This document shows positions 3,103-19,822 of a stretch of 64,000 nt of DNA, in pieces. Source of the stretch: Methylacidiphilum caldifontis (GTDB lineage: Bacteria; Verrucomicrobiota; Verrucomicrobiia; Methylacidiphilales; Methylacidiphilaceae); contig NZ_CP065957.1 of assembly GCF_017310505.1 (NCBI RefSeq), positions 806,001-870,000 of the forward strand, given 5' to 3'. The notes below the pieces were generated by a model. The model was not told the DNA's origin. It saw only the letters and a program-made list of their open reading frames with translations, and ran no database searches. The translations under genes and the position numbers were made by a program. Within the stretch, counting starts at the first letter, position 1. Each line of letters starts with the position of its first letter.

Positions 3103-3104
3103 CT

Positions 3105-5480
3105 TTAAGGACTTGATACCTTTGAAGTTTGGATCGCCGATTGATGAGTAAAATAATAATCGGTTAAAAGAAGATGAAATTCGAAAAGTTCCTTTTCGAT
3201 CTGCTCGATCCAAGGCTTATAAACAAAAACCGGATCCGTGTTTGTCACTCCAGAAGGGCTTGTTGCTTTCAGCTCTTCAGACCACCGTTTCAGTTTCGCA
3301 TTCAGATAACGGATAATAGATAGAGGCTTTGCCGACATGCTGGGGAACCTTTCAATGAACTTGAGCATGGTTTCAACTTGGTCTAAACAAAAGGAAACCG
3401 ACCGAGAGAATTGCTCGTCAAAGAGAAAAAGAGCTATCGCTTTATGGGCAGAAAAAGGATAATGATAAAGACTTCTGTAAGCATATAAAGCTGAAGAGAG
3501 TTTTAATATTTTCTCCAGCAAAGCCAAGAAGTTATATCCTTGGGAATCCTTCTTTTCGATGAGTTTTAAGCAAAACCGACTCAAAAGAATACTAAATCTG
3601 GCCTTTTCATAGAACCGGCCTACCTGAAAAAATTTCCACTGCTCGTTGCGCAAAAGATGCTCATCGATAGCTGACAGGAGTTTGGCTGAATCCAAGGAAA
3701 AGTCAGAAATCAGTTGAGTAGAATCAAGGTTCTTATTTTCAAAAGATTGTTTTTGAAGCTTATAATAAAGGGAACTTAGGGAGATCCAAACTTCAGGGGG
3801 AATGGAATCTCTGATTTTAGCACCGTTTTCAAAGCAACGAGAAATGCAATTGATAACCGAATCTTCCCCTTTCGATCCCATGAAAAACTGAAAAAAAAGG
3901 CTGAGATGGTCTTTGGGATATGAGCTTTTAAAAGCACGAGCTGAAAAATAATCCGCTAGTTCTTTTAAAAAAAAGGAAAGAACTTCGGAATTTTCTAATA
4001 AAGCCTTATCCTCATAACTCCAGAAAGAAAGAATAATGTGATGGAGTTGAAGGGCTCGAGTCAGATATCTTCCAAGCCAGTACATCGACTCGGCAACTCG
4101 ACTTAGGATACTGATCCGATTTTCAGAATAGGGAAGAGAATAAAGGGTTAACTCGGAAGCTCTGGAAAGCTTTTCTTGGTAAAGCCATACATCTTTTAAA
4201 AGAAGCCTCTTTTCATTTTCCTGGCACCCTTTGCCCAGTACAATAGGGAGAAGTTCGGATCGATTTTCTTTGACCACACCATAAAAAACAAAAGAAAAAG
4301 GTTTATAGCTTAGAGAAGAGCCATAAAAAGATGGAAATTTCTTGAAAGAAAGCCTTTTTTGAACAACCAGCGAAGAAAGAACCCTTTGTGGAATTTTCTT
4401 TGCTTTCGCCCAGTCAACCCATTGGTCTATTCCTTGAGGCTCAACCTTTGCCTCTCTATCCTTGAGGATATAATCTGCGGGAGAGTCTAGGAAAAGGGAA
4501 AAGGCATCAGGATCAGATGCAGGATAGGTTGGCAGAGAATTTAACAAAGGTCTTTCTTTCAAGTAAAAAGAGATTATTTTTGAGCCGTAGGATTGGAGAA
4601 GAGGATCGGACACTATCCCACAACCCGCAGCATTAACAAGTTTTAAATTTCCCTTTCTTAAACACCAAAAAAGTCCAGCAATTCCTTGATCTATAGAGCA
4701 TCGATTAGCAATAGGATCAAGTCGGCTATCAGCTATTCTTCTCAAAAGAATAGCGATAGGTTCTAGCCCACCTAAAGTTTTTGCATAAAGCTTGCCTTCA
4801 AGAACGACAAGATCGGTGGATAAAAACAGAGGAATGCCCATCCTCCGAGCAAGGAGTGCCGCTTCCCAGTCTTCGGCTTTTTCTGTCACCAAAGCGACCA
4901 GTCCCTCGTTATCTTCAGGTAGAACTTGACTTAAAGCTTCAAGGATCTTTTCTGGATAGTCCAAACAGCCGAGGGGTTCTACTCCGTTAAACAGCTCGGG
5001 CAGCGTTTCTCTCAGTCCCCTCCTTATCTCTTCAGCAAGCATGATATTCTGGGGTATCTCCAACTCGTCATGGAGTACAATCCAGTTACCGTTTTCTTCT
5101 TTTGCTAGTTCACAAGAAAAAAAATAGCAATACTCTTCTCCTGCGGGGTTCAAATTGACACATTCCCTCCGGTACCTCGGAGAAGAAAAAAAAGGCTCAA
5201 AAGGAATGACTTTGTTCTTAAAAATCGTTTTTTCAAAATAAAGATCTTTTAAAAACTTTCTCCATCCTTTTACTCTCTGTTCTATGCCTGCTCGAATTAC
5301 GACCCAGTCTTCCTCACACAGGATAATAGGCCACGGGTCTATGGAATATTGTTCACCCTTATCCAAGGGATAAGGATATATTCCCATAAGTTCAAAATTA
5401 AGCCCCATGGCTTTCTGGGCCATGTTCAAGTTTTCTTCAACAAGGGAAGAGGCCTGTTTCTCAAGGATCATCTTGGACAT
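3105..5480 (-). CDS. Circularly permuted ATP-grasp (degenerate) fused to alpha-E domain
   Basis: A protein of about 791 residues: N-terminal circularly permuted ATP-grasp (DUF404/DUF407, about 1-460) joined to a C-terminal alpha-E helical domain (about 470-790, opening SRVAESMYWLGRYLTRALQL). The ATP-grasp half looks degenerate. Where the paralogue at 6473-7978 has GCGIGDDKAIYSFVP, this copy has GCGIVSDPLLQSYG, and no clear counterpart of the paralogue's GGYGMLIGP loop can be seen. It may therefore be a scaffold or regulatory subunit. I chose ATG 5478-5480 because GAAGG lies about 9 bases upstream; a TTG at 5511-5513 would add 11 residues. It sits between the alpha-E gene and the transglutaminase, all on the minus strand. 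Confidence 0.82.
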   Translation of the reverse strand: MSKMILEKQASSLVEENLNMAQKAMGLNFELMGIYPYPLDKGEQYSIDPWPIILCEEDWVVIRAGIEQRVKGWRKFLKDLYFEKTIFKNKVIPFEPFFSSPRYRRECVNLNPAGEEYCYFFSCELAKEENGNWIVLHDELEIPQNIMLAEEIRRGLRETLPELFNGVEPLGCLDYPEKILEALSQVLPEDNEGLVALVTEKAEDWEAALLARRMGIPLFLSTDLVVLEGKLYAKTLGGLEPIAILLRRIADSRLDPIANRCSIDQGIAGLFWCLRKGNLKLVNAAGCGIVSDPLLQSYGSKIISFYLKERPLLNSLPTYPASDPDAFSLFLDSPADYILKDREAKVEPQGIDQWVDWAKAKKIPQRVLSSLVVQKRLSFKKFPSFYGSSLSYKPFSFVFYGVVKENRSELLPIVLGKGCQENEKRLLLKDVWLYQEKLSRASELTLYSLPYSENRISILSRVAESMYWLGRYLTRALQLHHIILSFWSYEDKALLENSEVLSFFLKELADYFSARAFKSSYPKDHLSLFFQFFMGSKGEDSVINCISRCFENGAKIRDSIPPEVWISLSSLYYKLQKQSFENKNLDSTQLISDFSLDSAKLLSAIDEHLLRNEQWKFFQVGRFYEKARFSILLSRFCLKLIEKKDSQGYNFLALLEKILKLSSALYAYRSLYHYPFSAHKAIALFLFDEQFSRSVSFCLDQVETMLKFIERFPSMSAKPLSIIRYLNAKLKRWSEELKATSPSGVTNTDPVFVYKPWIEQIEKELFEFHLLLTDYYFTHQSAIQTSKVSSP

Positions 5481-5558
5481 TTTTCTTAGCCTTCGTAAAA
5501 TGCAAGAAATCAATCAGATAAAAACAATTGCCAAAAATAGGTTTAAGCATGAAAAACT

Positions 5559-6467
5559 TTAACCTAGGGATGATAAAAGAGATTGATGGATTGTGTTGCA
5601 TTCGATTTGAATATCTAAAAATATCTTTTTATTCCGTTCAGCCGTAATCCCATTTTTAACTTGTTCAAGGACTTTGGAAAAAAGCTCTTTTGTTTGGGTC
5701 TGGAGCAATTCAATATCCCATTGTTGCGAAAGGACTCCCAGGTAATGAAGCATTTTATCAAGTAAAGAAAGAATGGAATAGGGATAAAGTGAAGAGCCTA
5801 GGATATATAATGCTGTTTTTTCATAGCTAAGCTCATTCATCCCTATTTTCTTCTTTAAAAGATCCCGGATAAAAAGGGAATTAAGGAAAGCTTCCCATTC
5901 TTCATAAGGAGGATCGTCCTTGTTTTCCTCCGGATGATAAGCAAAAAAAAAGGCAGCACAATTACCCACTTTTTCAATGTATTCCCCGATTTTCAACCAG
6001 AGCAAGAAAGGTTCCTCTTCAAAAAGATAATCTTGAAGCTGTCGCATGACGAGAATCTTTTCAATAACCTCTTTAATGAGAGGATAACAAGAGAGTTGGA
6101 AAGGAGAGCTAGCCGTCGTCGATGAAAGCAGAAAATAGGCACTATTAAGATATTCCCAAAGAGGTAAAGGAAGCCAATCCCTAAGTATTTTTGCATTTTC
6201 CCTGGCTGAGAAAAGAGAGCAAAGAGAAGAAAGGGGATTGTCGTGATCGAACAAAACAAAGAAAAGAGTAGATGACAGCTCTCCCTGGATAGGCCCACGG
6301 TTAAAAATTCTCAATCCTTTTTTGATCCTTTCCCAGCAACACGACCATTTTTCTGCCGAAGCTTCTAGTCCATAACCTAGATAACTTTGGCAAACATTCA
6401 AACTCACCAAGGCCCTTTCTATATACCTTGCTGTCCAGTAAATGTTTTCGATTCGCTGTCCGCTCAT
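5559..6467 (-). CDS. Alpha-E domain protein (DUF403)
   Basis: A stand-alone alpha-E protein of 302 residues, almost all helical, with the diagnostic N-terminus SGQRIENIYWTARYIERAL, the same element that opens the fused domain in the next gene. The family always travels with circularly permuted ATP-grasp and transglutaminase genes and is presumed to bind or present the substrate of the ligase; no enzymatic activity is established. The start ATG is at 6465-6467, only 5 bases from the stop of the upstream ATP-grasp gene, so translation is probably coupled. Sequence conservation appears modest over the rest of the protein, but the family call is secure from the N-terminus and context. Confidence 0.83.
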   Translation of the reverse strand: MSGQRIENIYWTARYIERALVSLNVCQSYLGYGLEASAEKWSCCWERIKKGLRIFNRGPIQGELSSTLFFVLFDHDNPLSSLCSLFSARENAKILRDWLPLPLWEYLNSAYFLLSSTTASSPFQLSCYPLIKEVIEKILVMRQLQDYLFEEEPFLLWLKIGEYIEKVGNCAAFFFAYHPEENKDDPPYEEWEAFLNSLFIRDLLKKKIGMNELSYEKTALYILGSSLYPYSILSLLDKMLHYLGVLSQQWDIELLQTQTKELFSKVLEQVKNGITAERNKKIFLDIQIECNTIHQSLLSSLG

Positions 6468-6472
6468 GGATT

Positions 6473-7978
6473 TTATCTTTTTTCATCCTCAACAATCCAG
6501 CTATCTTTGCTCCCTCCTCCTTGGGATGAGTTGACCACAAACGACTGGGAGTCGATAGCGACCCGGGTCAGCCCTCCAGGGATTACCCGAGGCTCTTTGC
6601 CTAAAAGGACAAAAGGACGCAAATCCACTCTTCTTGGCTCTATGGTCCCATCAACAAGACAGGGAAGTTTTGAGAACCAAACTAAGGGTTGAGCAATGTA
6701 ATTTTGGGGATTGGCTAAAATTTTTTGTTTAAATTCTTGTCGTTGTCGAGAAGAACTGACAGGTCCAATAAGCATACCATAGCCCCCCGACTGGCTAACC
6801 TCTTTAACCACCAACTGCTCAATTTTCTCTAAAACATAGCTTCTTTCCTTGGGATTAAAACAACAATAGGTCTCTACGTTGTGCAGTATTGGCTCTTCGC
6901 CTAAGTAATAGCGAATTATCTGAGGAACAAAACTATAGATCGCTTTGTCATCCCCTATTCCACAACCCGGTGCATTGATGATGTTCAGTTTTCCCTCTCG
7001 ATATAGCCTAAATAGTCCTTTAAGCCCAATTAAGGAATCAGGGCGAAAAACCTCGGGATCCAAAAACCCTTCCTCGATACGCCGATAGAGTACAGTGATA
7101 TTTTTTTTAGTTTTTCCAGCCTTGAGGTAAAGCTTTCCATTTTCAATTATCAGCTCTTTAGATTCAACAAGAGCTGTCCCCATCTGGTTGGCTAGAAAAG
7201 AATGTTCAAAGTAGGCTGAGTTATACGGACCCGGAGTCAAAACAGCAACTTGAGCTTGGGGGCAATCAGGGGGATGAAGATCCAAAAACGTTTCTAAAAG
7301 AGCTTTTGGATAAGACTGGATAGGTAAGGGTCTCTGGGAAGAAAAGAAAAAAGGGCAACATTCTTTTAATACCATTCGTGCTGAAAGCATATAGGAAACC
7401 CCACTGGGAATCCTTAGATTATCTTCAAGAACAATAAAGTTACCCTTCTGGTCTTTTAGCAGATCACAGCCACAAACCGCAGCGTAGATCCCTCTAGGAA
7501 CATCAAGCCCAACCATTTGCTCAACAAAGCCTGAAGAATTCAAGACAAGCTCTCCAGGGATCACTTTATCCTTCAGTATTCTCTGTTTATGATAAACATC
7601 CTCAACAAAAAGATTGAGAGCTGTTAGTCTTTGAATCAGTCCTTTTTTTATTTTCTCCCATTCTCTTTTCACGATGAGCCTGGGAATAACATCAAAAGGA
7701 AAAATCCTGTCTTCAGTTTTTTCTTTCCCATTTTTCAATGAAAAAGTAACCCCCAATTGCTTGTACCTGTAGAAAGCTTTTTTCTGAGCCATCATCAACT
7801 TTTCTATGCCTACTCGAGACAGAATCATTTCCCATAGGGATTGATATTCTATTTTGGGATTTCCCAGGATGTTCAAGGATTCATCCTGACCATCAGCTAG
7901 ACTCTTATACTGATCAAAAAAAGAGAACTGGGAAAAATGTGGATTGGCTTTACTGGCAGTGGAAGAAAAAGAAGCCAT
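6473..7978 (-). CDS. Circularly permuted ATP-grasp ligase (DUF404/DUF407)
   Basis: A full-length (501 aa) circularly permuted ATP-grasp protein, first gene of the four-gene operon. It carries the family signatures: FPFDVIPRLIVKREWEKI, the QR-T-AL-LFVEDVY stretch, VLEDNLRIPSGVSYML, NAPGCGIGDDKAIYSFVP, RYYLGEEPILHNVETY and GGYGMLIGPV. ATP-grasp enzymes make amide bonds through acyl phosphates; this group is predicted to form peptide or peptide-like conjugates together with alpha-E and transglutaminase partners. All expected ATP and metal residues look intact, unlike the fused paralogue at 3105-5480. The start is ATG 7976-7978. The 261 bases upstream presumably hold the operon promoter, or it may be read through from the export genes further up on the same strand. 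Confidence 0.87.
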   Translation of the reverse strand: MASFSSTASKANPHFSQFSFFDQYKSLADGQDESLNILGNPKIEYQSLWEMILSRVGIEKLMMAQKKAFYRYKQLGVTFSLKNGKEKTEDRIFPFDVIPRLIVKREWEKIKKGLIQRLTALNLFVEDVYHKQRILKDKVIPGELVLNSSGFVEQMVGLDVPRGIYAAVCGCDLLKDQKGNFIVLEDNLRIPSGVSYMLSARMVLKECCPFFFSSQRPLPIQSYPKALLETFLDLHPPDCPQAQVAVLTPGPYNSAYFEHSFLANQMGTALVESKELIIENGKLYLKAGKTKKNITVLYRRIEEGFLDPEVFRPDSLIGLKGLFRLYREGKLNIINAPGCGIGDDKAIYSFVPQIIRYYLGEEPILHNVETYCCFNPKERSYVLEKIEQLVVKEVSQSGGYGMLIGPVSSSRQRQEFKQKILANPQNYIAQPLVWFSKLPCLVDGTIEPRRVDLRPFVLLGKEPRVIPGGLTRVAIDSQSFVVNSSQGGGSKDSWIVEDEKR

Positions 7979-8239: not shown

Positions 8240-10435
8240 TCAATCTTCTTGCCTAGAAATTAAAAGGGTAGTAAAAAATCGGTAGAGTTTTTCTGCTAGA
8301 ACTGTTCTTTTCCCCTTGATGATCAATTTTGCTCTCATATCTTCTAAGATCAGGGATTGATCCTCTTTAGACAGGGGAATAAAAGCAAAAACGTAAGGAT
8401 TTTTTTCTTGCTGTTCCTTCAAGGTCACGGGAATGACAGGGATTTTCCCTCCGTAAGGAATAAGAAGACCGGGAGGGATTTCTGACCGTTCGACCATCTT
8501 TTGGCCTATTTTTTGGACAACGGTATGAAAAATTTTTCCTGAGCTTATCCAAATGCCCTTGACTTCCGCGCCAGGGAAAACGATACGAGTTTCAGCCTGT
8601 GTTAAGGGGACAATAAAATAGTATCGCTCTAGGTTCCTAATTTTTAAAATCGTTTCTCCCGGCCGAAAATATTTTCCTCTTATCGATTCTATGTCTGGAT
8701 TGATCAGGACACCATCGATGGTCGATTTGAGCATAAGTTCTTCTTTTCTTTTGAGAGCTAGATCAAATTTCTTTCTTGTGGCTTGGAGATCTTGGGATCG
8801 CATCGGAGCACTCTCCTTCTCTTTTCCTTCTCTTCTCCGAGAACTATACTCAAAGGATGAAAAATCAATTCTTTTCATAGCAAGATCCATCCGGGCCAGT
8901 TGTAAGTCCATTTCAACCCGGTCGTTATCCAATCTTAGCAAAGCTTGGCCAGCTTTCACGTGCTGACCACTCCTAACCCATATTTCCTTTACAACACCTC
9001 CATCAGCACTTGCTACATTCTGGCCTAACTGGGACCGGACGACGGCTACGGTTTTTACTTTTTCCCTACAGGGGAAAACCAACAAGATACACAGAACAAT
9101 CAGTCCGAGGCCAAACCCTTTTAATCTTTTTTTTAAAGTTTGACTAAATCCAGGAAAAAAATGGGGGGAAAGAAAAGGAGCCAAGAAGACTTTCATAACA
9201 ACAGCTCCTACAAAAGCCATTTCTACGAAAAAACTTAAAGCTGCCCCGATATTTTCAAGACCTACCTGTTTAAATCCATTGAACAAAACTTTCCCCAAGG
9301 AATGAATGAGGTAAAACATGTAGCAGAGCGCTAAAGTGGAATAAACAAAAAAGATCCAACCTTTAGCTTTATTAACTTTCATCTTTAGTAGTTGCGGATT
9401 TTTATAACCCAAAAGCCAATCTTGAATCTTAGCTGTACAATAGGCAAAGGCTTTTTCCCTTAAATTAGGGATTTCAAGAAGATCCACTAAGACATAATAA
9501 CCATCGAATTTCATTAAAGGATTTAAATTAAAAAAAAGAGTTGTTACACTGGCCGTCACCATTAGATTAAAGGCAAGGTTCTTTGCCATTCCTAAGGGAA
9601 ATAAAATCCAAAGGTGTGCAGCTACCGAAGCGATGATCAGCTCGGTATAAACCCCCGCAGCAGCAATAAAAATCCTGGCTTTTTTATCGGTAATAATCCA
9701 ACTATCAGAAGCATCCACGTAACCCACTGGAATGAAAAAGAAAAAACCTACCCCCATTTCATGAATCTCACCTCCAAAACGACGAGTGGTTGTAGCATGG
9801 CCAAATTCATGAAGGGTTTTGTCAATGGCTGTAGCGATGTAAAGGAAGAAAATATTTTGCGCTGAGAAAAACTGGATCTGATTGGTATCAAAAGCTGAAC
9901 GATGTAAAAAAAGGAAAAAAAGAGTCCAGATCCAAAAGCAGATAGTGATTACCACGCCTTGGGGAGACCAAAGCCACCAGGCCGATCGAACAATCCGATC
10001 CAGCCAGCGAGAAGGATGTATTAAGGGAAGTTTAATAAAGAAAATCTTTAAAAAAAAACCCACTAAAAGCTGGAGAAAAGAATCCCTTCTTCTAGGTATC
10101 TTTGACAAGAGAACATCGGTAGGAAGGATAACTAAATTTCTAGAAACAAGAAGATCTAAAAATTGCAAAACATCCTGGGCACTAATCATTTTATGCGGAA
10201 AATACTTATTATAGTTTTGGGCAATCTCTTCAGCCGATCTTTTCCCATCAAATAAACCAGCAAGAATAGCTTCTGCGTGAGGCAGCCGACAGTAGGTAAG
10301 CCCTAAAGGATCTTTAACTACATAATAAGTTTTGTTATTAAAAATTTGCTTTTGAAATAAAAGATCGGTGCGCAGTTTATATGGAACAATATTTTCGGCT
10401 TTTTTTATCTGGTTTACTACTTCCTGTTTTATCAT
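8240..10435 (-). CDS. PqqD domain - M50 metalloprotease - HlyD adaptor fusion
   Basis: A 731-residue membrane protein with three parts. Residues about 30-105 form a PqqD-like winged-helix peptide-binding domain (KDPLGLTYCRLPHAEAILAG...). Residues about 120-455 are a polytopic site-2-protease-like M50 domain with HEFGH at 209-213 and NLNPLMKFDGYY at 303-314 supplying the zinc ligands. Residues about 460-731 form a HlyD-type biotinyl-lipoyl adaptor (GGVVKEIWVRSGQHVKAGQALLRL). Such a protein could bind a peptide, cut it in the membrane and hand it to a TolC channel. It is the last gene of the export block, 6 bases after tolC, and a second PqqD-like protein is encoded at 15078-15389. The role in peptide maturation is inference; the domain calls are strong. 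Confidence 0.86.
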   Translation of the reverse strand: MIKQEVVNQIKKAENIVPYKLRTDLLFQKQIFNNKTYYVVKDPLGLTYCRLPHAEAILAGLFDGKRSAEEIAQNYNKYFPHKMISAQDVLQFLDLLVSRNLVILPTDVLLSKIPRRRDSFLQLLVGFFLKIFFIKLPLIHPSRWLDRIVRSAWWLWSPQGVVITICFWIWTLFFLFLHRSAFDTNQIQFFSAQNIFFLYIATAIDKTLHEFGHATTTRRFGGEIHEMGVGFFFFIPVGYVDASDSWIITDKKARIFIAAAGVYTELIIASVAAHLWILFPLGMAKNLAFNLMVTASVTTLFFNLNPLMKFDGYYVLVDLLEIPNLREKAFAYCTAKIQDWLLGYKNPQLLKMKVNKAKGWIFFVYSTLALCYMFYLIHSLGKVLFNGFKQVGLENIGAALSFFVEMAFVGAVVMKVFLAPFLSPHFFPGFSQTLKKRLKGFGLGLIVLCILLVFPCREKVKTVAVVRSQLGQNVASADGGVVKEIWVRSGQHVKAGQALLRLDNDRVEMDLQLARMDLAMKRIDFSSFEYSSRRREGKEKESAPMRSQDLQATRKKFDLALKRKEELMLKSTIDGVLINPDIESIRGKYFRPGETILKIRNLERYYFIVPLTQAETRIVFPGAEVKGIWISSGKIFHTVVQKIGQKMVERSEIPPGLLIPYGGKIPVIPVTLKEQQEKNPYVFAFIPLSKEDQSLILEDMRAKLIIKGKRTVLAEKLYRFFTTLLISRQED

Positions 10436-10441
10436 AGCCCT

Positions 10442-11854
10442 TTATTGAGCTGGGAGTTGACCTCCAACGGCATATTCTAAGCGCGCTAGTGCAGCATTAT
10501 AATTAAATCGGGCCTCAGCATTGGCTAATTTAGCTTTAAGCAAAGCTTGTCGAGCCGTTACAGCTTGAACCCAGTTAGTTTCTCCACTTTCAAACAGTTT
10601 CCTTGCTTGATCAAAAGCTTTTTCCGCATCATTCACAGCCGTTTGTTGAAACGCAACAGCCTCCTTAGATCTTTTTATCTGCTGGTAAAGTTCTCTAAGC
10701 TGGGCAGGAATATCAACCTTAAGTTGACTGACTTTAACTTGGGCTATATTTTCCAATGCTTTTTGGGTCTTTATCCTTCCATTATTTTCCATAATATCAA
10801 AAAAATTCCACTGGCCTTGCACGCCCGCCGTCCAGCCCCATTTAGGGTAAAGGATGTAAACATTGCTAATGTTCTCATACTGAAGAAGGGCATCGAGGGT
10901 TGGATAATAGCTGGATTGAGCAGCAGCCACCGCAGCATGAGCAGCCGAAAGTGAATGCAAAGCCTCATTTAAATCAGTACGTTTTTGTAAAGCAATTTTT
11001 AGAGCTTCATCGTAAGGTACTTCGAAGGAAGGTAGATCGTTTTGACCAGCCAGGTAAAGAGGATCATTTTCTTGGCTACTTGGCATATTGAGGATCATTC
11101 TGAGCTGTTCTCTTGCTTTTACATAAGCGGATCTTGCCTGGGCTAGATCTCCAAGAGAAGTTGAGTATTCAGCTTGAGCACTTAAAGCTTGAAATTCAGG
11201 AATCTCTCCTTCTTTAAACATTTTTTGGGTATATTCAGCAATAGCACGACTTGCTTCGGTTAACTCTTCTCTAATTTCCACAACTTCTTGTCTAAAAAGG
11301 GTATAATAAAAAGCTTCCTTGGCTTGAGCCACCGTCCTCAAGGCCACATCCATCGATTGCCATATTACTTTTTCCAAAATCTCTTTTTGTTGCCTGGCTT
11401 CTTTAACCGCTCCCACATTGAGAATCGTTTGTTTTATCTGTACAGCCCCTAGCCAGCTCGTCCGAGTCAGGGGATAAGCTTCTATTGTTGGCAGAAACAT
11501 CAAAAGGGAGCTTTGTTCCCGTTGAGCACGGTAAACTAATCCTCCATGAGGGTAAAGCCTAGCTTTAAACTGCATTTTAATCCCTTCTTGTTGTTCAATA
11601 GCTTTTCGTGCAGAAACAACTTCAGGGTTCGCATCCAGAGCACGTTGGATAACCTCTTCTAATGACCATTTCTTAGTTGTACTCACCTGCAACTGCTTAG
11701 GATAAATCAGTTCAATCGGCTTTTTTATGCTATAAAAAATAGAAATCGAAGGATCAGCGTTTTGTGGGTCGGTAGAAGCCCCCTGAATATCAAGGAGTGT
11801 CAAAAAAGAAAAAAGACTGACCAACAAAAAGAAAAGGGAAAAATCTTTTCTCAT
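10442..11854 (-). CDS. TolC family outer-membrane channel protein
   Basis: A 470-residue outer membrane efflux protein with a signal peptide (MRKDFSLFFLLVSLFSFLTL) and two OEP repeats rich in long helices with alternating Ala/Gln/Glu, for example WSLEEVIQRALDANPEVVSARKA near residue 64 and AAHAAVAAAQSSYYPTLDAL near 305, which is the classic Y-P-x-L of TolC proteins. It would form the trimeric tunnel through the outer membrane for the HlyD-type adaptors encoded on both sides. No ABC or RND pump gene is present in the block, so the energising partner is unknown or replaced by the M50-HlyD protein. It starts with ATG, 6 bases after the stop of the preceding adaptor gene. Confidence 0.88.
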   Translation of the reverse strand: MRKDFSLFFLLVSLFSFLTLLDIQGASTDPQNADPSISIFYSIKKPIELIYPKQLQVSTTKKWSLEEVIQRALDANPEVVSARKAIEQQEGIKMQFKARLYPHGGLVYRAQREQSSLLMFLPTIEAYPLTRTSWLGAVQIKQTILNVGAVKEARQQKEILEKVIWQSMDVALRTVAQAKEAFYYTLFRQEVVEIREELTEASRAIAEYTQKMFKEGEIPEFQALSAQAEYSTSLGDLAQARSAYVKAREQLRMILNMPSSQENDPLYLAGQNDLPSFEVPYDEALKIALQKRTDLNEALHSLSAAHAAVAAAQSSYYPTLDALLQYENISNVYILYPKWGWTAGVQGQWNFFDIMENNGRIKTQKALENIAQVKVSQLKVDIPAQLRELYQQIKRSKEAVAFQQTAVNDAEKAFDQARKLFESGETNWVQAVTARQALLKAKLANAEARFNYNAALARLEYAVGGQLPAQ

Positions 11855-11860
11855 TCGTTT

Positions 11861-12769
11861 TTAAGGGTTTTTCTTAGCTGCATTTAAACCAATGACCGTC
11901 GGGGAATTGGATAAAACCTTTCTTTCCAGCTCAGGAATAACCAGTTCAGCACTTAAGCCAGCAACAACCTTGCTTGAAGAATTAATAACTAGTTTGACTC
12001 GGAATGTTCCACTTGCCGGATCCAAGATAGGATCGACATGTATAACCGTAGCTTCGACTTTTTCACCCGCATAGGGACCATCTACCAGTTCAACAAAATA
12101 TTTATCCTTTGGATGGATCTGGCCAAAGTGCTTTGAATCACAATAAATAACCATCTGAAGCTCAGAGGCATTGACTACCCTGCCCACTGGCTCAAGCCTC
12201 TCTACCGATTCACCCACGTTACGCAATTTTTTAAAAAAAATTCCTTCTATGGGCGAACGGATCATTTTTGATTCAAGCCTGTTTTTTGCTCCTTCCAAGA
12301 GGGCTGTCGCCTCCTTAAATTTGCCCTGGGCCATCTGCAATTGATACTTGATCTCCTCATATTGTTTTGGGCTAATGACTTCTTCCTTATAAAGATTTTC
12401 TATTCTTTTATATTCCATTTGAGCTTTTTCTAATTCCGCTTGGCAAACTGTAACTTCAGCTTCAGCTCTTACCATTTCAGCTCTCTCATCCTCAGTATTT
12501 AACTGGGCAATGATATCTCCTTTTTTGACATAAGCCCCTTCTTCAAAAAAAAATTTCTCTAATATTCCTGCAGCTTTAGCACTGATCCTAACATCCTCCA
12601 CGGGAAGAAGAATTGCTCTATAAGAAGATCTCTCCTCTGAAAAGTTTTCAGTTACTGGGTCAGCCATATTTATACCCAGTAAATTTCCCCCCAGATCGTC
12701 CTGAGCCCAAAGGCGACCGATAGAAAAAATAAAAAAAAACACAATTATTCCCTTTTTAAAACTCGTCAT
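11861..12769 (-). CDS. HlyD/RND-type periplasmic adaptor protein
   Basis: A 302-residue membrane-fusion protein. A signal peptide (MTSFKKGIIVFFFIFSIGRLWAQ) is followed by a split biotinyl-lipoyl barrel (DVRISAKAAGILEKFFFEEG...GDIIAQLN), an alpha-helical hairpin at about 100-170 with charged coiled-coil repeats, the second half of the barrel (MIRSPIEGIFFKKLRNVGESV) and a C-terminal beta barrel (DPILDPASGTFRVKLVI). It bridges an inner-membrane partner to the TolC channel encoded immediately downstream. There is no cognate RND pump nearby, which is unusual for this family. The start ATG is at 12767-12769; 144 bases separate it from the gene upstream, enough for a separate promoter. Confidence 0.87.
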   Translation of the reverse strand: MTSFKKGIIVFFFIFSIGRLWAQDDLGGNLLGINMADPVTENFSEERSSYRAILLPVEDVRISAKAAGILEKFFFEEGAYVKKGDIIAQLNTEDERAEMVRAEAEVTVCQAELEKAQMEYKRIENLYKEEVISPKQYEEIKYQLQMAQGKFKEATALLEGAKNRLESKMIRSPIEGIFFKKLRNVGESVERLEPVGRVVNASELQMVIYCDSKHFGQIHPKDKYFVELVDGPYAGEKVEATVIHVDPILDPASGTFRVKLVINSSSKVVAGLSAELVIPELERKVLSNSPTVIGLNAAKKNP

Positions 12770-12913: not shown

Positions 12914-15046
12914 TTACCAGAAAAAAACATGGATTTTTAGAAACCGGACTATGTCCCTGAAGGCTATTTCACCTAGAGGTCTAATGCCTACGTAAATTTT
13001 GGCTATTCCTCTGAAACCCTTTTTTAATAGTACTGGGTTGATATTCTTTTCTTCCCATGGGATTAGAAAGGAAAATTCATATTTGGCTTTTTCTACTTCC
13101 GCTCCATGAACAAATTGGTCAGTAGAATTTAAAAAAAGCCTATAACTTTTTGTCGGATCAGCGAACAATTTAAAGGATATGGGAAGAGGTTTTCTCTTTT
13201 TTTCCAAAAGATTAGCCAAATAAATGAGATCCTGTTCTTTCAAAAAACCCTTCACTTTCCAATACCTGGGATCAGCAAGTTGAACAAGGACTTCTCCGAT
13301 CTGGGTAACTTCTCCTCTACGAGTAGCAAGGTTGTAAGGTCCCATTACCAGTCCATCTATTGGAGCTCGAATAAAAGTATGCTGGTAATCCTTGTACAAA
13401 CTTTTGAGCATGGCTTGAGATTTCAACGCATTAAGTCGGGCAAGTTGCATCGCGGTTTCCTGTTTTAAGTTTTGTGCTAAGTCCGCTTCAGCCATATTTT
13501 TCTTGTAATCTTGTTCGATCTCCTTGATTTTCAGCCGAATATTTGTCGAATCGAGGGTCATTAAAAGTGCTCCTCTTTTTACATAGTCACCGACTTGAAC
13601 ATGGATGGAATCGATCCGAGCGGATACCATGGCGGGCACAGAAATCTCAAAAGAAGGCAGAAGGACAGCATCGGCCTTGATCTTCATCGGCAAGGGAATC
13701 AATGCTATAGTTCCAAGAAATAAAATTAAAAGGGCAATGAAAACCAGGGGTTTTCTTAGCTGGAATGGATAAAGCCAGGCTTTCTTTTTAAAATAGACTC
13801 GAGCAAAACTTCTGCCTCCAACCAAGCAGATTCTCTGCAAAAGGTTGAAAAGTTCAAGATTTGCTACAATCGGTTCTTGACCTTCCCATGAAAGAAATCC
13901 AAATATTCTTTTTTCATCGTCCATCAAAGGGAAGGCAGCAATCCAATTCATGGGAACTGTATTGAAATAATCGATGATCTCCTTGGGCCTTTCTTTTGAT
14001 CCCCCTTCTCTCATAGCAAAACCAATGCGTAGAGGGCTACGAGAAGTTTCATCTTGAAGTTCTTCCTTTTTGCTGGAGATAATCTTTTCATCCCCAAAAA
14101 GAAAGGAAAAAAAAAGAGTTTTGAGTTTCTTATCCCGTTTCGGTTTTCCTACAAAATATTGAGGATTAGCCACTTTAACTAGCGAAACAACCGCTTCTTT
14201 AAGTATAAGGGCTTGATTAGCATGCTTTTGAATTTCTACAAGGGAGCTTGCTGCTTTTAATTCAAACTGCTGGAGCTGACTAAAATCCTGGGAGAATAGA
14301 AAACTATAGCCTTTGGAATTCAAAGGAACGGCAAAAAGACAACTCCGGTCACATCCAGCCGCCTCTCTAGCGTAGTTGACAAGCAGATGAGCCATTTTAT
14401 CCCTGTCATGCTCATTCATCGCTAACTCCTCGATGTATTTCACGTAAAGGGCAGAAAGGGTTGAAGAAGAGCTCGAATGAACCGTTATATCTTTTATCCA
14501 TTGTCCAAGACAACTGGCTACCGCAAAACTGATAGGAGCTAAGCACTGGTACTGGTGTTCAAGAAAATTTTGGTGATTTTCCCCCTTAAACCAGTAATGA
14601 ATAACTCCCTGAAAATGATCGGCATGGATCAGTGGAAAAAGGAAATGATGTAAAAAATTATGATCCTTGTTATCAAATGGATAAGACCAGACAGCATCAT
14701 AATCAGGAGAAAGTGGCCATGAAAAATAACAAAATCTTTTCTCAAGAAAAGCCTGCTTAAGCTGTTGGTCTAAAAAATTTCTCTTTTCATGGTTCATTTC
14801 CCACGGTAAGGGACCATCACAAGAAGACCAGATTGACCGCCACCCTGATCCTTCTAGCCGGGTTATCTGCATTCCCTGAATGGCTATCTTCAGAGAAAGG
14901 TAGTGAAAAACAATAGGAAACAGCTTCTCAAGGCTTCGGATAGAATTCAACAAAAGGGGTAAATTTTCTGCAAACTTATCTGGTGAAAGAGAAAAAAGAT
15001 TAAAATCAGTTGATTTATTTTCTTTCACTGATTTGAACAAAAGCAA
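12914..15046 (-). CDS. GAF-like domain fused to HlyD-type adaptor
   Basis: A 710-residue protein. The long cytoplasmic N-terminal part (about 1-430) contains a GAF-like segment, for example LVNYAREAAGCDRSCLFAVP and NWIAAFPLMDDEKRIFGFLSWEG, then a single membrane helix at about 437-455 (LVFIALLILFLGTIALIPLP) and a HlyD-type barrel-hairpin-barrel (VPAMVSARIDSIHVQVGDYV...MTLDSTNIRLKIKEIEQDY). The fusion suggests export gated by a cytoplasmic signal. I recall similar GAF-HlyD, HlyD and M50-HlyD triplets in Planctomycetes but cannot check. The start is uncertain: TTG 15044-15046 has AGG just upstream, with another TTG two codons in. It follows the PqqD-like gene by 31 bases. Confidence 0.8.
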   Translation of the reverse strand: MLLFKSVKENKSTDFNLFSLSPDKFAENLPLLLNSIRSLEKLFPIVFHYLSLKIAIQGMQITRLEGSGWRSIWSSCDGPLPWEMNHEKRNFLDQQLKQAFLEKRFCYFSWPLSPDYDAVWSYPFDNKDHNFLHHFLFPLIHADHFQGVIHYWFKGENHQNFLEHQYQCLAPISFAVASCLGQWIKDITVHSSSSSTLSALYVKYIEELAMNEHDRDKMAHLLVNYAREAAGCDRSCLFAVPLNSKGYSFLFSQDFSQLQQFELKAASSLVEIQKHANQALILKEAVVSLVKVANPQYFVGKPKRDKKLKTLFFSFLFGDEKIISSKKEELQDETSRSPLRIGFAMREGGSKERPKEIIDYFNTVPMNWIAAFPLMDDEKRIFGFLSWEGQEPIVANLELFNLLQRICLVGGRSFARVYFKKKAWLYPFQLRKPLVFIALLILFLGTIALIPLPMKIKADAVLLPSFEISVPAMVSARIDSIHVQVGDYVKRGALLMTLDSTNIRLKIKEIEQDYKKNMAEADLAQNLKQETAMQLARLNALKSQAMLKSLYKDYQHTFIRAPIDGLVMGPYNLATRRGEVTQIGEVLVQLADPRYWKVKGFLKEQDLIYLANLLEKKRKPLPISFKLFADPTKSYRLFLNSTDQFVHGAEVEKAKYEFSFLIPWEEKNINPVLLKKGFRGIAKIYVGIRPLGEIAFRDIVRFLKIHVFFW

Positions 15047-15077: not shown

Positions 15078-15389
15078 CTATCCTTGAAAAGAAGGATTTT
15101 TTTCTACTTCGGGTTTTACCAGAATGCCATTCTCGACCAATCGTTGGATAAAAAGATCGATATCTTTCCCCATTTGTTGAGGATCCCCTTCAAAATGCTC
15201 AAAAACCCAATTCCTTAGTGCCTTAATATCTCCTTTTAAGGCAACGAGTTTTTCCCACAACACTGCTCCATAGTTATCTAACTTATAATATTGCCAAGTT
15301 GTAGGATCAACCATGATGATTTCGTTGTCTATCCGTTCATAACAAATCCAATCAGGAATTTCTACCCTATTTATTTCATTTTCTTCCAT
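15078..15389 (-). CDS. PqqD-like peptide chaperone
   Basis: A 103-residue stand-alone PqqD-like protein. The family pattern is clear: WICYERIDNEIIMVDPTTWQ, YYKLDNYGAVLWEKL, then a helical region and FIQRLVENGILVKPE at the end. PqqD proteins (RiPP recognition elements) bind the leader of a precursor peptide and present it to a radical SAM enzyme. Its start ATG at 15387-15389 lies inside the end of the radical SAM gene (overlap of 14 bases), so the two are translationally coupled and almost certainly work together. The likely clients are the small peptides at 17336-18417. The same fold occurs at the N-terminus of the M50-HlyD fusion. Confidence 0.85.
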   Translation of the reverse strand: MEENEINRVEIPDWICYERIDNEIIMVDPTTWQYYKLDNYGAVLWEKLVALKGDIKALRNWVFEHFEGDPQQMGKDIDLFIQRLVENGILVKPEVEKNPSFQG

Positions 15390-16437
15390 AAACTACCTCT
15401 TCAGTTTCCCTTTGCCTCGAATAAATACATTTTCTGTCACTATTATCTTTATGCTTATTTTTATCCTGATATTTTCTCATCATCCTTAGGGCTAAAAGCA
15501 AGCTTTTACCTTCAGAACGAGAAAAATAAGTTCTTAATTTTTCAACTAACCTTTGATCTCTTAAGATATCGATACAGCTGTCACATATGCTTGAATAGCG
15601 CTCTCTTTCTGGGAACAAAACGCCAGGAAAATGATCTTTTAAGATTTTATAGAGTCCAAAAGAACCCGCAAGAGCAATCATTTCTAGAATGGGATCTTCC
15701 TTTCCTTCCTTTAAAATTTCATTTAAAGGCCTCTTTTTTGCATCACCTAAAAACAAAGGAGAATGCTCAGGAGCATAATGGGAAGGACCACAACATGCAA
15801 ATACCCTTCCGTCATATTTGACTACAGGAGCTAAGACAACGCCACATATCCCTTGAGGTGGAGTTTGTTCCCAAAAAAAATCTTCCTCTGGAATAATCTC
15901 TGCTCTGCCTAGCTTAATAAGGGGAATTTTTTCGAGCTGGTATTGGATTTCCCCTAAATCCGGTAAAGCTAACTTGTCGAGAGAAAGGGGTGTGACAACA
16001 CTCCTAATCGTTAAAGGAATTTTTAAGTTCCAAGCGGATTGAGCAACCGCCTTCAATTTCCATTCATTTTTAAAAGCCAAATGATACTGATCCCAGCTTA
16101 TGCATAATCTATCCAACCCTGCAGCATGAACTTGTTGAATAACCTCAAAGGCATGTCTATCAGACCTGACCCATCCACAACCTGTAACAGCCGTAACACC
16201 AAATCCAAGACTCTTGGCTTTAGATATACAGCGAATCAACTTTTCGCTATCCAAAAAGGCTTCGCCTCCCGTAAAACTGATCACAGGGCTAATCCCAACA
16301 GCCTGTTCCAAAAGAGCATAAACAAACTGCTCATCTAATTCTCCTTTAGCATCAGGAGAGGACTCCGTAATGCAATGCGCACAACGAAGTGGGCATTTTT
16401 TCCTCAGCATTATACCTAAGACCTCATAGTTTATCAT
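15376..16437 (-). CDS. Radical SAM/SPASM-type protein
   Basis: A 353-residue radical SAM enzyme. The [4Fe-4S]-SAM motif C-x3-C-x2-C is at residues 15, 19 and 22 (KKCPLRCAHCITESS), with the SAM-binding stretch SFTGGEAFLD after it. The C-terminal half has further cysteines (GICGVV, FACCGPSH, YSSICDSCIDIL) typical of a SPASM or twitch auxiliary cluster. Such enzymes install carbon-carbon or carbon-sulfur links or epimerise residues in ribosomal peptides. Overlap with the PqqD-like gene and nearby small peptides make a peptide-tailoring role the best guess. The chemistry cannot be read from sequence; neither small LESR peptide contains cysteine, which argues against thioether formation. The start ATG is at 16435-16437. 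Confidence 0.86.
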   Translation of the reverse strand: MINYEVLGIMLRKKCPLRCAHCITESSPDAKGELDEQFVYALLEQAVGISPVISFTGGEAFLDSEKLIRCISKAKSLGFGVTAVTGCGWVRSDRHAFEVIQQVHAAGLDRLCISWDQYHLAFKNEWKLKAVAQSAWNLKIPLTIRSVVTPLSLDKLALPDLGEIQYQLEKIPLIKLGRAEIIPEEDFFWEQTPPQGICGVVLAPVVKYDGRVFACCGPSHYAPEHSPLFLGDAKKRPLNEILKEGKEDPILEMIALAGSFGLYKILKDHFPGVLFPERERYSSICDSCIDILRDQRLVEKLRTYFSRSEGKSLLLALRMMRKYQDKNKHKDNSDRKCIYSRQRETEEVVYGRK

Positions 16438-16443
16438 AGATTT

Positions 16444-17296
16444 TTACCGATTGAATGACTGTGAGAGAATCATCTCACAAATTTGAGGTATTTTTTCGAT
16501 TTTTCCCCTTGGAAGAAATAACCGGTAGGTACGTATTTGGGCTAACCATTGTAAGATTTTTTGAACATGAACCCTTTCATCCAGAACAAAAGCACTATTG
16601 AAATAAAGATTACGAAATGCTTTCCCTGGCTCAACCTTTTCAATGAAAGGCTCTTGGTTATCTGTCCAACGCAGAAAAAAAAATAGTCTTAAGAGGTAAT
16701 ATGTGCTTAGAAAAAAGAGTAACAGGCCTACCTATATCCTCCGACTTTCTATAATTACGAAGAAAAGGATGAGCAGGGACAACTAATGGTTCATTCGTTT
16801 CTAAAACAAATCCTGTTCTATCATCGGCAACTAAGTTGTATCCTAGCTCTTGAAAAGCAGCAAGTAAAGTTGACTTTCCTCCTCCAGAGGAAGCCATCAG
16901 ACCTACAGCTTGGGAGTTGACTTCAAATGCCCCTCCGTGAAGAAAAAGGAGTTTTCCGATACACTGTCCAAAAAGGGGTAAAACAAATTGGTAAAAATAG
17001 TATTTAAGCTTTTCTTGATCAAAAGATTTGTAGGCAAAAAAAAGTCGATCCGCATCGATAGTAAACAAAAATTTATCTTCGACAACAATTCTTCTCGGGT
17101 TAAGAAGATAACTTAATGGTCCACAAGACAATAAAGGCTTTTGTTCCATTTCAGGGATAAATTCAACATAAGAAGAATAAAAAGGGTATCTTCCCCAAAT
17201 TACTGGTCCAGAAAACGCCAACTCCTCTATTGAACCTTCCAAGCCAATCCCATAGCCTACCGCATTGCTCTTTATTTTTAAAGCCCAATCTCCCAT
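16444..17296 (-). CDS. HPr kinase-like (HprK) protein, frameshifted at a homopolymer
   Basis: An HPr-kinase/phosphorylase-like protein of the kind found in peptide clusters. Walker A ASSGGGKST is at residues 135-143 and LVADDRTGF follows. As written, the frame stops at 16658-16660 after KTIFFSALDR. Removing one T from the run of nine (A9 at 16675-16683 on the given strand) restores KTIFFLRWTDNQEPFIEKV and about 70 more coding-looking residues, ending at TAA 16444-16446, 6 bases before the radical SAM gene. The full product would be about 283 residues. Relatives in lasso-peptide clusters phosphorylate precursor peptides. The break could be a sequencing or assembly error, polymerase slippage or phase variation; the intact tail argues that any loss is recent. 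The start is ATG 17294-17296. Confidence 0.75.
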
Positions 17297-17335: not shown

Positions 17336-17527
17336 TTATAGTCCGACGGTAGCTAATGCTGTTGCGGCTAATAATTGAGCTCTGGGATCTGGTATCTGAT
17401 TTGAAAAAGAACTTAAATTTCCTAAATGGAAAAAACCCGGACTTTTCCACATAAATTTTACTTTTTCTTTAATCTTTTCTTCAAAGATCTCCAAACTTAT
17501 AATCGGCAGCTGGCTGATGTCTTCCAT
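17336..17527 (-). CDS. Small peptide, candidate precursor
   Basis: A 63-residue product not recognised from any family. It is a credible gene because a strong AAAGGAGG sequence precedes ATG 17525-17527 by about 8 bases, and it is the gene directly upstream of the HPr-kinase-like gene. The N-terminal half is charged and helical (LEIFEEKIKEKVKFMW) and could be a leader; the C-terminus is IPDPRAQLLAATALATVGL. The PDPRAQLLAATA stretch loosely recalls the LESR-x-LFAAAA motif of the two neighbouring peptides, but with one extra residue and at the opposite end, so homology is not proven. There are no cysteines. It is either a precursor peptide or a small accessory protein of the modification enzymes. 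Confidence 0.6.
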   Translation of the reverse strand: MEDISQLPIISLEIFEEKIKEKVKFMWKSPGFFHLGNLSSFSNQIPDPRAQLLAATALATVGL

Positions 17528-17557: not shown

Positions 17558-17992
17558 CTAAATAATCGAAAGAACAGATGTTAAGAGCGGACTGAGCAAA
17601 TCATTAGTCAATCCTGTCACGACATTCAAAACACTATTGACTCCGCTAAGCAAAGGTTGAAGATCCTTAGCCAAATTCAACTCTCCAATTTGAAGAGTAG
17701 CCTGAGGTCCACCAACACCTAGATGTAAAAATATTGGGAACTGATTAGTATTAATGACAGGATCATTTATTTGGGCATGAAACTGAGTAGTTGTCGATGG
17801 TTGACCTTGATTAATATTTAAAAGAGAAAAACCATTCCCGGAACTCGCTGCAGATCCAGAAAATTCTTGAACTCCATTCAAATGAAACAAATGATGGGGG
17901 ATTGCAGCAGCTGCAAAAAGGTGGCGAGATTCAAGTGCTTCGATCTCAAAAAGATATTTTTCTTCATTTAAAAAACCTTTTATCGTATTCAT
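17558..17992 (-). CDS. LESR-LFAA motif peptide 2, candidate exported precursor
   Basis: A 144-residue protein. Residues 16-35 read EIEALESRHLFAAAAIPHHL, nearly identical to residues 11-30 of the upstream neighbour. The middle is polar and rich in Gly, Ser, Asn and Gln. The C-terminus is amphipathic/hydrophobic with VVTGLTNDLLSPLLTSVL, also matching its neighbour. The motif resembles the LEPR-x-LL element known near the N-terminus of large surface proteins in Planctomycetes and relatives, so it may be a targeting or processing signal, with AAAA as a possible cleavage site. The start is ATG 17990-17992, where AGAGGAAAGGA lies just upstream; the frame continues to 18088 without family support. 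The function is not established. Confidence 0.72.
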   Translation of the reverse strand: MNTIKGFLNEEKYLFEIEALESRHLFAAAAIPHHLFHLNGVQEFSGSAASSGNGFSLLNINQGQPSTTTQFHAQINDPVINTNQFPIFLHLGVGGPQATLQIGELNLAKDLQPLLSGVNSVLNVVTGLTNDLLSPLLTSVLSII

Positions 17993-18084
17993 TTTTTTCT
18001 TTCCTTTCCTCTGATATAGACACAGGGGGAGGCTTGTAAAGCAAAACATTAGCCTCCCCCCTACTTTAGTTTTTTTATCAATTA

Positions 18085-18417
18085 TCAAACAATCGCTAAG
18101 ACCGAGCCCAAAAGGCCTGTAACGGTCCCTAGAAGAGGACTTACGATTCCTCCCACCAATCCCGTCACTGGTGTGGTTATTGAGGATAGAGTCGACCCTA
18201 GCCCCGATAAACTGGGTTGATTAACATGAAGGGAAAGATCTGCGGGAAGATTCACGTTGATCATATGTTGGCCATTTACTGGATTGTTTAGTTGCAACGA
18301 AAGATCCAAAGGCAAGTTTAGATTAACAAGATGATGGGGAACAGCTGCAGCAGCAAAGAGCTGGCGTGATTCTAATTCTTCAATTTCAAATTTAGCAAAA
18401 TTAATTTCTGTTTGCAT
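18085..18417 (-). CDS. LESR-LFAA motif peptide 1, candidate exported precursor
   Basis: A 110-residue protein, paralogue of the next gene. Residues 11-30 are EIEELESRQLFAAAAVPHHL. Two imperfect copies of a short beta-like repeat follow: VNLNLPLDLSLQLNNPVNG and INVNLPADLSLHVNQPSLSG. The C-terminus is small-residue-rich and hydrophobic (VTGLVGGIVSPLLGTVTGLL), as in bacteriocin-like or self-assembling peptides. The start is ATG 18415-18417, with AAGGAGGT 7 bases upstream; an upstream in-frame ATG lacks such a site. It is the first gene of the minus-strand block, divergent from the nucleotidyltransferase gene, so the promoter should lie at 18430-18590. It has no cysteine. Precursor status is inference from size, paralogy and context. 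Confidence 0.74.
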   Translation of the reverse strand: MQTEINFAKFEIEELESRQLFAAAAVPHHLVNLNLPLDLSLQLNNPVNGQHMINVNLPADLSLHVNQPSLSGLGSTLSSITTPVTGLVGGIVSPLLGTVTGLLGSVLAIV

Positions 18418-18595: not shown

Positions 18596-19822
18596 ATGTT
18601 ACAAAATTTAGAAGAAAATGCGGTTTTATTACTGGGAAGAAACAGTGTAGAAGCAAAGCATTGGGGAAAAATAGAAAAGATTTTTTCTTCTAAGTCTTTT
18701 AATTGGGAGCTTTTTTATCAACTCTGTTTTGCTCATGGACTTTGGGGTTTTGTATTCAATAACATTAAGGAACGCTTCATTTTACCGAAAGATATTTATA
18801 TAAGGCTATCTTTACTTTGCCAAAATACTTTAAAAAGAAATCTCTTGCTTCTTGAAGAACAAAAAGAAATTTTAACTCTTTTCAATCAAGAAGGATTGCC
18901 GGTTATTCCCCTTAAAGGAACAGATTTTAATACAAGGACCTATGGAAAAAATTTTGAGTTGAAAACCACTACCGATATCGACCTATTGTTACCTCAAAAG
19001 GATGTCCACAAGGCGATAGATCTACTTCAAAGAAAACTAAACTATTATACCAAAGCCTCAACACGAAAGATAAAGCAGAAGTCAATTCTTTTCTGGGAGA
19101 AGGATATTTCTTTTTACAAGAAAAAAGATCATTTTGATTGCGCGCCTTCAATCTTAGAACTTCATTGGGCATTAGTTTTTAACCCACGGCTTGACTACCG
19201 GGCATTAGAGGCCATCTGGAAAGAAAAGATTCTTGAAAAGTGGGAAAACATCCCCGTGTTGAGAATGAGCCCCCAAAACGAGCTGATTTTCCTTTTAGTT
19301 CACGGCAGTAAACACCGCTGGGAATGTCTTCGTTATGTTGTCGATGTTCACGAATTCATTTTAAAGTGTTCTTTTAATGACAAGCAATGGGATGAAATCG
19401 TCCGCAAAGCTTTTTATTTCCGATGGGAAAGATTTTGCTTCCTTGGGCTTTCGGTTGTCCAAAAACTTTATGAAAGCCCAGTTCCTGAAGAAGTTTTAAA
19501 AAAACTCGGGGAAAACTGGGTTAAAAAGGAAGATATTTTTTCTTCCACACTCCCCTTCCCCTACATTCGCCATTTTAGTCTTTTCGAACTGTTTTCTTCT
19601 CCCATGCATAAGCTTTTGTTTAGCCTTAAATCGTTAAGGTTTCCTTCCGAAGACCTGGTTCAAAAATTTCCCCTCCCCTCTTTTCTCTCCTTTCTGTACA
19701 TCCCTCTATCGGCTTTTTTCAGCTCATGGGCTTGGCTTCGCCGAAATTTCTTTTCCCTTTTCCCCTACAAGCTAAAACTCCAATTAAAAAGCATTGAAAA
19801 ACATCTATCGAATTCACTATAA
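18596..19822 (+). CDS. Nucleotidyltransferase family protein (NTP_transf_5-like)
   Basis: A 408-residue protein of the uncharacterised nucleotidyltransferase group often found in peptide, capsule and lasso-peptide clusters. Visible motifs: PVIPLKGTDFNTRTYG, then the metal-binding TTTDIDLLLP (Asp-x-Asp) and the conserved ILELHWALVFNP. It is transcribed away from the peptide/HprK/radical SAM genes from a shared 180-base gap. In paeninodin-type lasso clusters such proteins accompany an HPr-kinase-like tailoring kinase, so it may transfer a nucleotide or sugar phosphate to a phosphorylated peptide. The exact reaction is unknown. No Shine-Dalgarno precedes ATG 18596. The C-terminal part is rich in Phe, Ser and Leu and may associate with the membrane. 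Confidence 0.82.
   Translation: MLQNLEENAVLLLGRNSVEAKHWGKIEKIFSSKSFNWELFYQLCFAHGLWGFVFNNIKERFILPKDIYIRLSLLCQNTLKRNLLLLEEQKEILTLFNQEGLPVIPLKGTDFNTRTYGKNFELKTTTDIDLLLPQKDVHKAIDLLQRKLNYYTKASTRKIKQKSILFWEKDISFYKKKDHFDCAPSILELHWALVFNPRLDYRALEAIWKEKILEKWENIPVLRMSPQNELIFLLVHGSKHRWECLRYVVDVHEFILKCSFNDKQWDEIVRKAFYFRWERFCFLGLSVVQKLYESPVPEEVLKKLGENWVKKEDIFSSTLPFPYIRHFSLFELFSSPMHKLLFSLKSLRFPSEDLVQKFPLPSFLSFLYIPLSAFFSSWAWLRRNFFSLFPYKLKLQLKSIEKHLSNSL

Follow-up and report, generated by a model that had tools for sequence, protein, structure and literature searches.

Small paralogous proteins with a LEPR-XLL-type putative leader encoded beside an RRE-M50-HlyD exporter in Methylacidiphilum caldifontis

Two small paralogous proteins of Methylacidiphilum caldifontis, P1 and P2, carry near their N-termini an LESR-x-LF element that can be classed with the LEPR-XLL type as a sub-threshold relative of PF07595/NF012209, and their genes open an operon that combines RiPP-type functions with an M50-HlyD exporter. 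Elsewhere, LEPR-XLL proteins are associated with this same exporter through both co-occurrence and proximity. It is fairly probable, in our judgment, that the element serves both as a RiPP-type leader and as an export tag, that the RRE of M50-HlyD reads it, that the leader is cut, and that P1 and P2 are exported through M50-HlyD. The window analyzed here is a 64,000-nucleotide stretch of the genome (NZ_CP065957.1, positions 806,001 to 870,000), the relevant features of which are collected in Table 1.

P2 is preceded immediately by a strong ribosome-binding site, AAGGAGGT, and contains two NLPxDLSLxxNxP repeats and a C-terminal hydrophobic helix. A longer P1 reading frame, from a TTG start and extending to 18088, is unsupported. 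Each protein contains FEIE[AE]LESR[HQ]LFAAAA[IV]PHHL in its N-terminal part and has SPLL with a hydrophobic tail at the C-terminus, and BLASTP aligns them with E=2e-13 (53% across 47 aa). The 20-residue identity EIE[A/E]LESR[H/Q]LFAAAA[I/V]PHHL reported in the preliminary description is exact, and one more shared residue (F) extends it upstream. When P2 was searched against all six frames of the entire genome, a single contig of 2.25 Mb, only P2 itself (E 4.5e-81) and P1 (E 5.9e-9) were significant matches. Each of the other four genus genomes that were examined also has an orthologous P2-P1 tandem pair (5/5 with this one), and a search of other genera of the family for the tandem pair or the operon produced no match. 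In the alignment of the ten P1/P2 proteins, residues F10, E11, E13, L15, E16, R18, L20, F21, A22, A23, A25, P27, H28 and H29 are invariant, as is the C-terminal SPLL, and the middle differs in length and sequence, which bears out the earlier claim of fixed ends and a differing middle. Judged from this alignment, both ends are under purifying conservation, and chance is ruled out. The AlphaFold model of P2 was uninformative (pLDDT 48). A marginal match of P1/P2 to the BPI fold in a PDB sequence search (E 0.01), which runs over the hydrophobic repeats, was judged to be compositional.

The LEPR-XLL/Planctomycete-extracellular motif has been regarded as a putative export signal for two decades. 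As represented by PF07595, the Planctomycete extracellular motif reads RRLxxExLExRxLLA (Studholme et al. 2004). Two matches, P2 and P1, resulted from a PF07595 search of the genome (E<=10). The same family matches six of the ten P1/P2 orthologues and is the sole family to match more than one of them, with sub-threshold scores; P1/P2 score 11.7-13.9 bits against a curated cut-off of 25.5 bits. No match to the NF012209 profile was found in this genome at E<=0.05. An independent LEPR profile, whose only input was LEPR motifs in proteins from other bacteria, placed P1 (E 0.066) and P2 (E 0.30) at the top of the genome. Around residues 12-25, all ten P1/P2 proteins carry [IMFV]-E-x-L-E-[SA]-R-x-L. 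The assignment to the LEPR-XLL type is made because P1 and P2 are the two best genome matches of both PF07595 and the independent profile; the resemblance to LEPR-x-LL that the first reading of the peptides had pointed out is thereby supported, at scores below the curated cut-offs.

Read in the direction of transcription (right to left), the operon comprises P2, P1, o63, the HprK-like gene, radical SAM, PqqD, GAF-HlyD-type, HlyD, TolC and M50-HlyD. This order is common to five species, TolC excepted: a search between HlyD and M50-HlyD turned up no intact TolC gene in three of the five genomes (L029, L031, L032). By homology, a putative precursor with a conserved leader, an RRE, a putative modifying enzyme and a putative leader protease share one operon, which is the general mark of a RiPP system. 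M50-HlyD, GAF-HlyD-type and HlyD/biotin-lipoyl proteins likewise occur together in the window locus. The small protein o63 is a candidate alternative or additional precursor peptide; it matched none of the family profiles, and a PDB search also gave nothing useful. An intact HprK-like relative of 288 aa matches the window gene in two frames, over residues 6-212 and then 207-288, and the disruption is either decay or a sequencing error. In G003, an in-frame stop interrupts the HprK-like copy (L031). The radical SAM enzyme has YydG/EpeE as its nearest relative and retains CxxxCxxC and the CC pair; the position mutated in 8ai6 is an Ala in the window's enzyme. With 110 bits against the YydG equivalog cut-off of 300 bits (TIGR04078), it is a homologue of 8ai6, not an equivalog. 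In the window's copy of the GAF-HlyD-type protein Pfam does not call a GAF domain; it does so in a relative. Among the genes of the operon, none was recognised as an immunity or ABC gene of the YydIJ kind. In the sister species G004, M50-HlyD (L032 10856-13025) is broken into three open pieces, and P1 and P2 are intact there. Downstream of the exporter, the minus strand of the window (2245-7978) carries a circularly permuted ATP-grasp/alpha-E/transglutaminase cassette. The divergent NTP_transf_5 gene is a doubtful member of the P1/P2 system.

Table 1 Features of the P1/P2 locus, with coordinates in the window.
Feature	Position	Strand	Remarks
NTP_transf_5 nucleotidyltransferase-like protein, divergent	18596-19822	+	PF14907 138.6 bits; genus-wide synteny
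P2	18085-18417	-	110 aa; leader-like FEIEELESRQLFAAAAVPHHL at N-terminus
Strong stem-loop between P2 and P1	18020-18064	-	z -4.3 here
P1	17558-17992	-	144 aa from ATG; paralogue of P2 with FEIEALESRHLFAAAAIPHHL and hydrophobic C-terminus
o63, conserved 63-aa small protein	17336-17527	-	LEIFE near N-terminus; hydrophobic C-terminus
HprK-like kinase gene	16447-17296	-	Frameshifted near 16680; open frame 16658-17296
Radical SAM enzyme, relative of the YydG/EpeE peptide epimerase	15376-16437	-	TIGR04078 110 bits; PDB 8ai6 E=6e-20
Stand-alone PqqD-type (RRE) protein	15078-15389	-	PF05402 42.6 bits, above cut-off
HlyD-type adaptor, relative of exporter-locus GAF-HlyD	12914-15046	-	Homologues in 60/80 M50-HlyD loci
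HlyD-type periplasmic adaptor	11861-12769	-	TIGR01730 above cut-off
TolC-type outer-membrane channel	10442-11854	-	PF02321 140 bits
RRE-M50-HlyD fusion	8240-10435	-	PqqD-like N-terminus; intramembrane metalloprotease with HEFGH and NPLxxFDGYY; HlyD C-terminus

Across five species, the stem-loop that separates P2 from P1 persists as a structure (z -3.8 to -6.0) with diverged stem sequences. A classical terminator was looked for at this position and was not found, and there is no T-run; the stem-loop has the look of a differential-expression element more than of a simple terminator.

M50-HlyD begins with a PqqD-like domain of ~110 residues, which PF05402 detects in 15/20 members (best value 1.4e-7). 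The N-terminal domain of the window's protein was modelled by AlphaFold with a pLDDT of 85, and the seven best matches of a fold search with this model were PqqD (5sxy) and lasso B1 RRE-leader complexes (5v1v, 5v1u, 6jx3), at E 0.004-0.03 and probability 0.99-1.00. Profile-profile comparison with the PqqD of the operon gave a weak match (16% probability). On account of the PF05402 matches and the fold match, the N-terminus of M50-HlyD is predicted to be a PqqD/RRE-like domain. The RRE and M50 stretch scores 152-177 bits against the daptide RRE-protease NF041824 (152 for the window), below the equivalog cut-off of 300, and the window's M50 scores 48.5 bits against the YydH/LiaK epipeptide protease. 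Since HExxH and NPLxxFDGYY are invariant, the M50 protease looks intact.

Among 241 Verrucomicrobiota genomes, NF012209 was detected in 22, M50-HlyD in 54 and both in 17, so that 37 of the 54 M50-HlyD genomes lack an NF012209 match. Co-occurrence, 17/22 vs 37/219, gives p=1.1e-8 in a Fisher test, which counts genomes as independent despite their kinship, and rises to 13/13 at E<=1e-4. Six of 32 NF012209 matches in this phylum lie <=10 kb from M50-HlyD vs 0.16 expected (p=1e-8). PF07595 and M50-HlyD are associated in the same direction in 195 Planctomycetota genomes (15/22 vs 42/173, p=7e-5), and 9/47 PF07595 matches fall within 35 kb of the exporter vs 1.4 expected, with a p of 8e-6 that is optimistic because several proximal matches are syntenic copies in related genomes. 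Of the M50-HlyD genomes from other phyla, 23/30 scored above the NF012209 cut-off; the controls gave 1/14. At 80 M50-HlyD loci collected from several phyla, LExRxL[LMFY] occurs near the N-terminus in 12/890 ORFs, compared with 0/890 for the reversed motif and 3/2377 for internal windows.

The present genome (G000) has a single M50-HlyD gene, and this gene adjoins its only two motif proteins. The sister genome G002 has two exporters, the second of which is directly preceded by a 1208-aa protein (L033 1967-5593) that starts MKKKLRIESLEKRYLMHAA / MKKKLRIESLEKRYLMHAAP. This protein has IESLEKRYLMHAA in its N-terminal part, is repetitive through its middle and carries a phosphoesterase domain at the C-terminus. 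A Fic-domain gene adjoins this second exporter set and the 1208-aa protein. The motif had been expected near export genes, and this is where it was found, P1 and P2 lying within an exporter/RiPP-type operon and LEPR-XLL co-occurring with the same exporter elsewhere. A BLAST scan of the other 80 M50-HlyD loci found no genes resembling P1, P2, o63, the radical SAM or the HprK-like gene; thus, in the sampled data, the RiPP-like extension seems confined to the genus. A SecA-like gene is within reach in 71/80 M50-HlyD loci, and ten other M50-HlyD genomes of the phylum have 2-3 SecA each. A secondary SecA was sought in the five genus genomes and is absent, each having one canonical SecA; presumably, either the small cargo needs none or another motor serves.

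Building on the motif, the operon, the homologies of its products, the motif-exporter link across phyla and the predicted RRE fold, we infer a scheme for leader binding, cleavage, the direction of transport and the identity of the modified peptide. The element [FY]x[LIV]ExLExRxL[LF] would be of the LEPR-XLL/Planc_extracel kind, acting both as a RiPP-type leader and as a tag for export. P1 and P2 would be synthesised in the cytoplasm, where the leader would be bound by a PqqD-type RRE, most likely the N-terminal one of M50-HlyD. The stand-alone PqqD may hand the peptide or peptides to the YydG-like radical SAM enzyme, by which P1, P2 and/or o63 would be epimerised. The peptides would cross the envelope via the M50-HlyD/HlyD/TolC channel, and the intramembrane M50 protease would probably cut off the leader. 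Together with the secondary SecA ATPase, this exporter would in most bacteria act on very large LEPR-XLL surface proteins. The product in this genus is likely to be a small secreted hydrophobic peptide, probably with D-amino acids, because the secondary SecA is missing, the adjacent cargo is tiny and epimerase-type modification genes have been acquired. The suggestion in the preliminary description that the peptides are precursors with a fixed recognition element is supported by the conserved ends and the RiPP/exporter operon; its overall interpretation is supported in part.

The scheme leaves room for a different division of labor, in which o63 is the true precursor of the YydG-like epimerase and P1 and P2, as LEPR-type proteins that are secreted or displayed on the surface without modification, only share the exporter. 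We consider this possible, if doubtful. o63 is conserved in the genus, lies directly before the modification genes, has the size of an epipeptide precursor, and combines a small-aliphatic stretch at its end with LEIFE in the leader position; moreover, LEPR-XLL proteins elsewhere have no such radical SAM nearby. However, the LEIFE match taken by itself has a shuffle probability of 0.0185, the R-x-LF part is missing, o63 matches no family, and P1, P2 and o63 may all be substrates. A reading that is compatible with leader-guided export makes P1 and P2 a two-component RiPP pair, with the C-terminal part epimerised, cut by M50 and released as a membrane-active, bacteriocin-like pair. Their length of 110-144 aa is great for epipeptides and no YydIJ-kind immunity or ABC gene accompanies them, so that we hold this to be unlikely, in spite of the tandem paralogues, the fixed leader, the variable middle, the hydrophobic V/I/L/G/S C-terminus and the presence of a YydG-like radical SAM enzyme, an M50 protease and PqqD within the same operon.

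The motif is short and its scores fall under the curated cut-offs, as would be expected if the LESR element were a genus-specific coincidence and P1 and P2 were functionally unrelated to LEPR-XLL. This is very improbable in our estimation, since P1 and P2 are the genome's two best matches to two LEPR models and adjoin the one exporter with which LEPR proteins associate in several phyla. The leader/export tag read by the M50-HlyD RRE is the explanation that we prefer.

A wider hypothesis, drawn from association and homology, takes LEPR-XLL in general as the leader of a distinct secretion system. LEPR-XLL would be a RiPP-type leader and the RRE of RRE-M50-HlyD its receptor; with GAF-HlyD, TolC and the secondary SecA, RRE-M50-HlyD would form a system that secretes surface proteins as long as ~20,000 residues. 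A single RRE-protease module would then serve both daptide/epipeptide maturation and giant-protein secretion, two uses that meet in the P1/P2 operon of this genus. We regard this hypothesis as evenly balanced between right and wrong. It joins two planctomycete/verrucomicrobial questions, namely the identity of the reader of the LExRxLL surface signal and that of the cargo exported by the SecA2/M50-HlyD locus. If it is true, one recognition module serves both leader-guided peptide maturation and the secretion of proteins that rank among the largest known in bacteria; the P1/P2 operon is small enough for convenient biochemical testing.

Several known systems resemble the window locus in part. 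The secondary SecA_DEAD, M50-HlyD, GAF-HlyD and HlyD form a conserved locus whose broader role was "completely unknown" to its authors, who left its substrates open as well, and the available portion of their paper names neither an RRE nor a substrate motif for it (Kamneva, Poudel and Ward 2015, PMC4452313). It shares with the window the M50-HlyD fusion, the GAF-HlyD-type adaptor, HlyD and OEP/TolC in one locus; the window, in contrast, has no secondary SecA and adds the radical SAM, PqqD, HprK-like and small-peptide genes. The available portion of PMC3482391, a work on polymorphic toxins consulted for M50/SecA exporters, does not describe the window's exporter.

In the daptides, the RRE-protease family is found with short ORFs that carry an N-terminal ELExMEAP; leader-dependent processing through the MpaB RRE cannot do without Leu(-7) and Met(-4), which are three positions apart, and MpaP takes off the leader (PMC10036551). 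MpaP (NF041824) resembles the window's protein in its N-terminal RRE and M50, being homologous along the whole stretch, and in a substrate leader of the [LI]Exx[LM]E type. The spacing of the daptide ELExMEAP is common to LEPR ([LI]ExLEPR), P1/P2 (IE[AE]LESR) and o63 (LEIFE), and the likeness between daptide and LEPR leaders covers about five positions. By analogy to the daptides (PMC10036551), the cut would fall nearer the LESR/LEPR element than after AAAA. Unlike the daptide system, the window has its M50 fused to HlyD and is without decarboxylase/aminotransferase genes, and P1, P2 and o63 are without a daptide-type C-terminal Thr. The epipeptide locus of Bacillus subtilis, YydFGHIJ/epeXEPAB, likewise encodes both a YydG-type radical SAM enzyme and an M50 protease, YydH/EpeP. 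The window differs from it in its Gram-negative channel (HlyD, TolC), RRE domains, longer precursors and lack of identified YydIJ-type genes, and the precursors are unrelated in sequence to the epipeptide precursor as far as tested.

LEPR-XLL/PF07595 proteins share with P1 and P2 the N-terminal F-x-[LI]-E-x-L-E-x-R-x-L-[LF] and the genomic linkage to the M50-HlyD exporter. P1 and P2 differ in having LF-AAAA-[IV]-PHHL after the arginine, in scoring under both cut-offs and in their length of 110-144 aa, whereas many LEPR frames are thousands of residues long, the longest reaching 20,466 aa. In the Verrucomicrobiota genomes G073, G076, G143, G211 and G240, LEPR-XLL matches lie in open frames of 17,000-20,466 residues. 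No literature joining LEPR-XLL to the M50-HlyD exporter was found in a search that left most subscription journals outside. The motif, the exporter locus and the RRE-M50 proteases are already known; what is new here is that RiPP enzymes and an exporter without the secondary SecA occur together with LEPR-type cargo of very small size.
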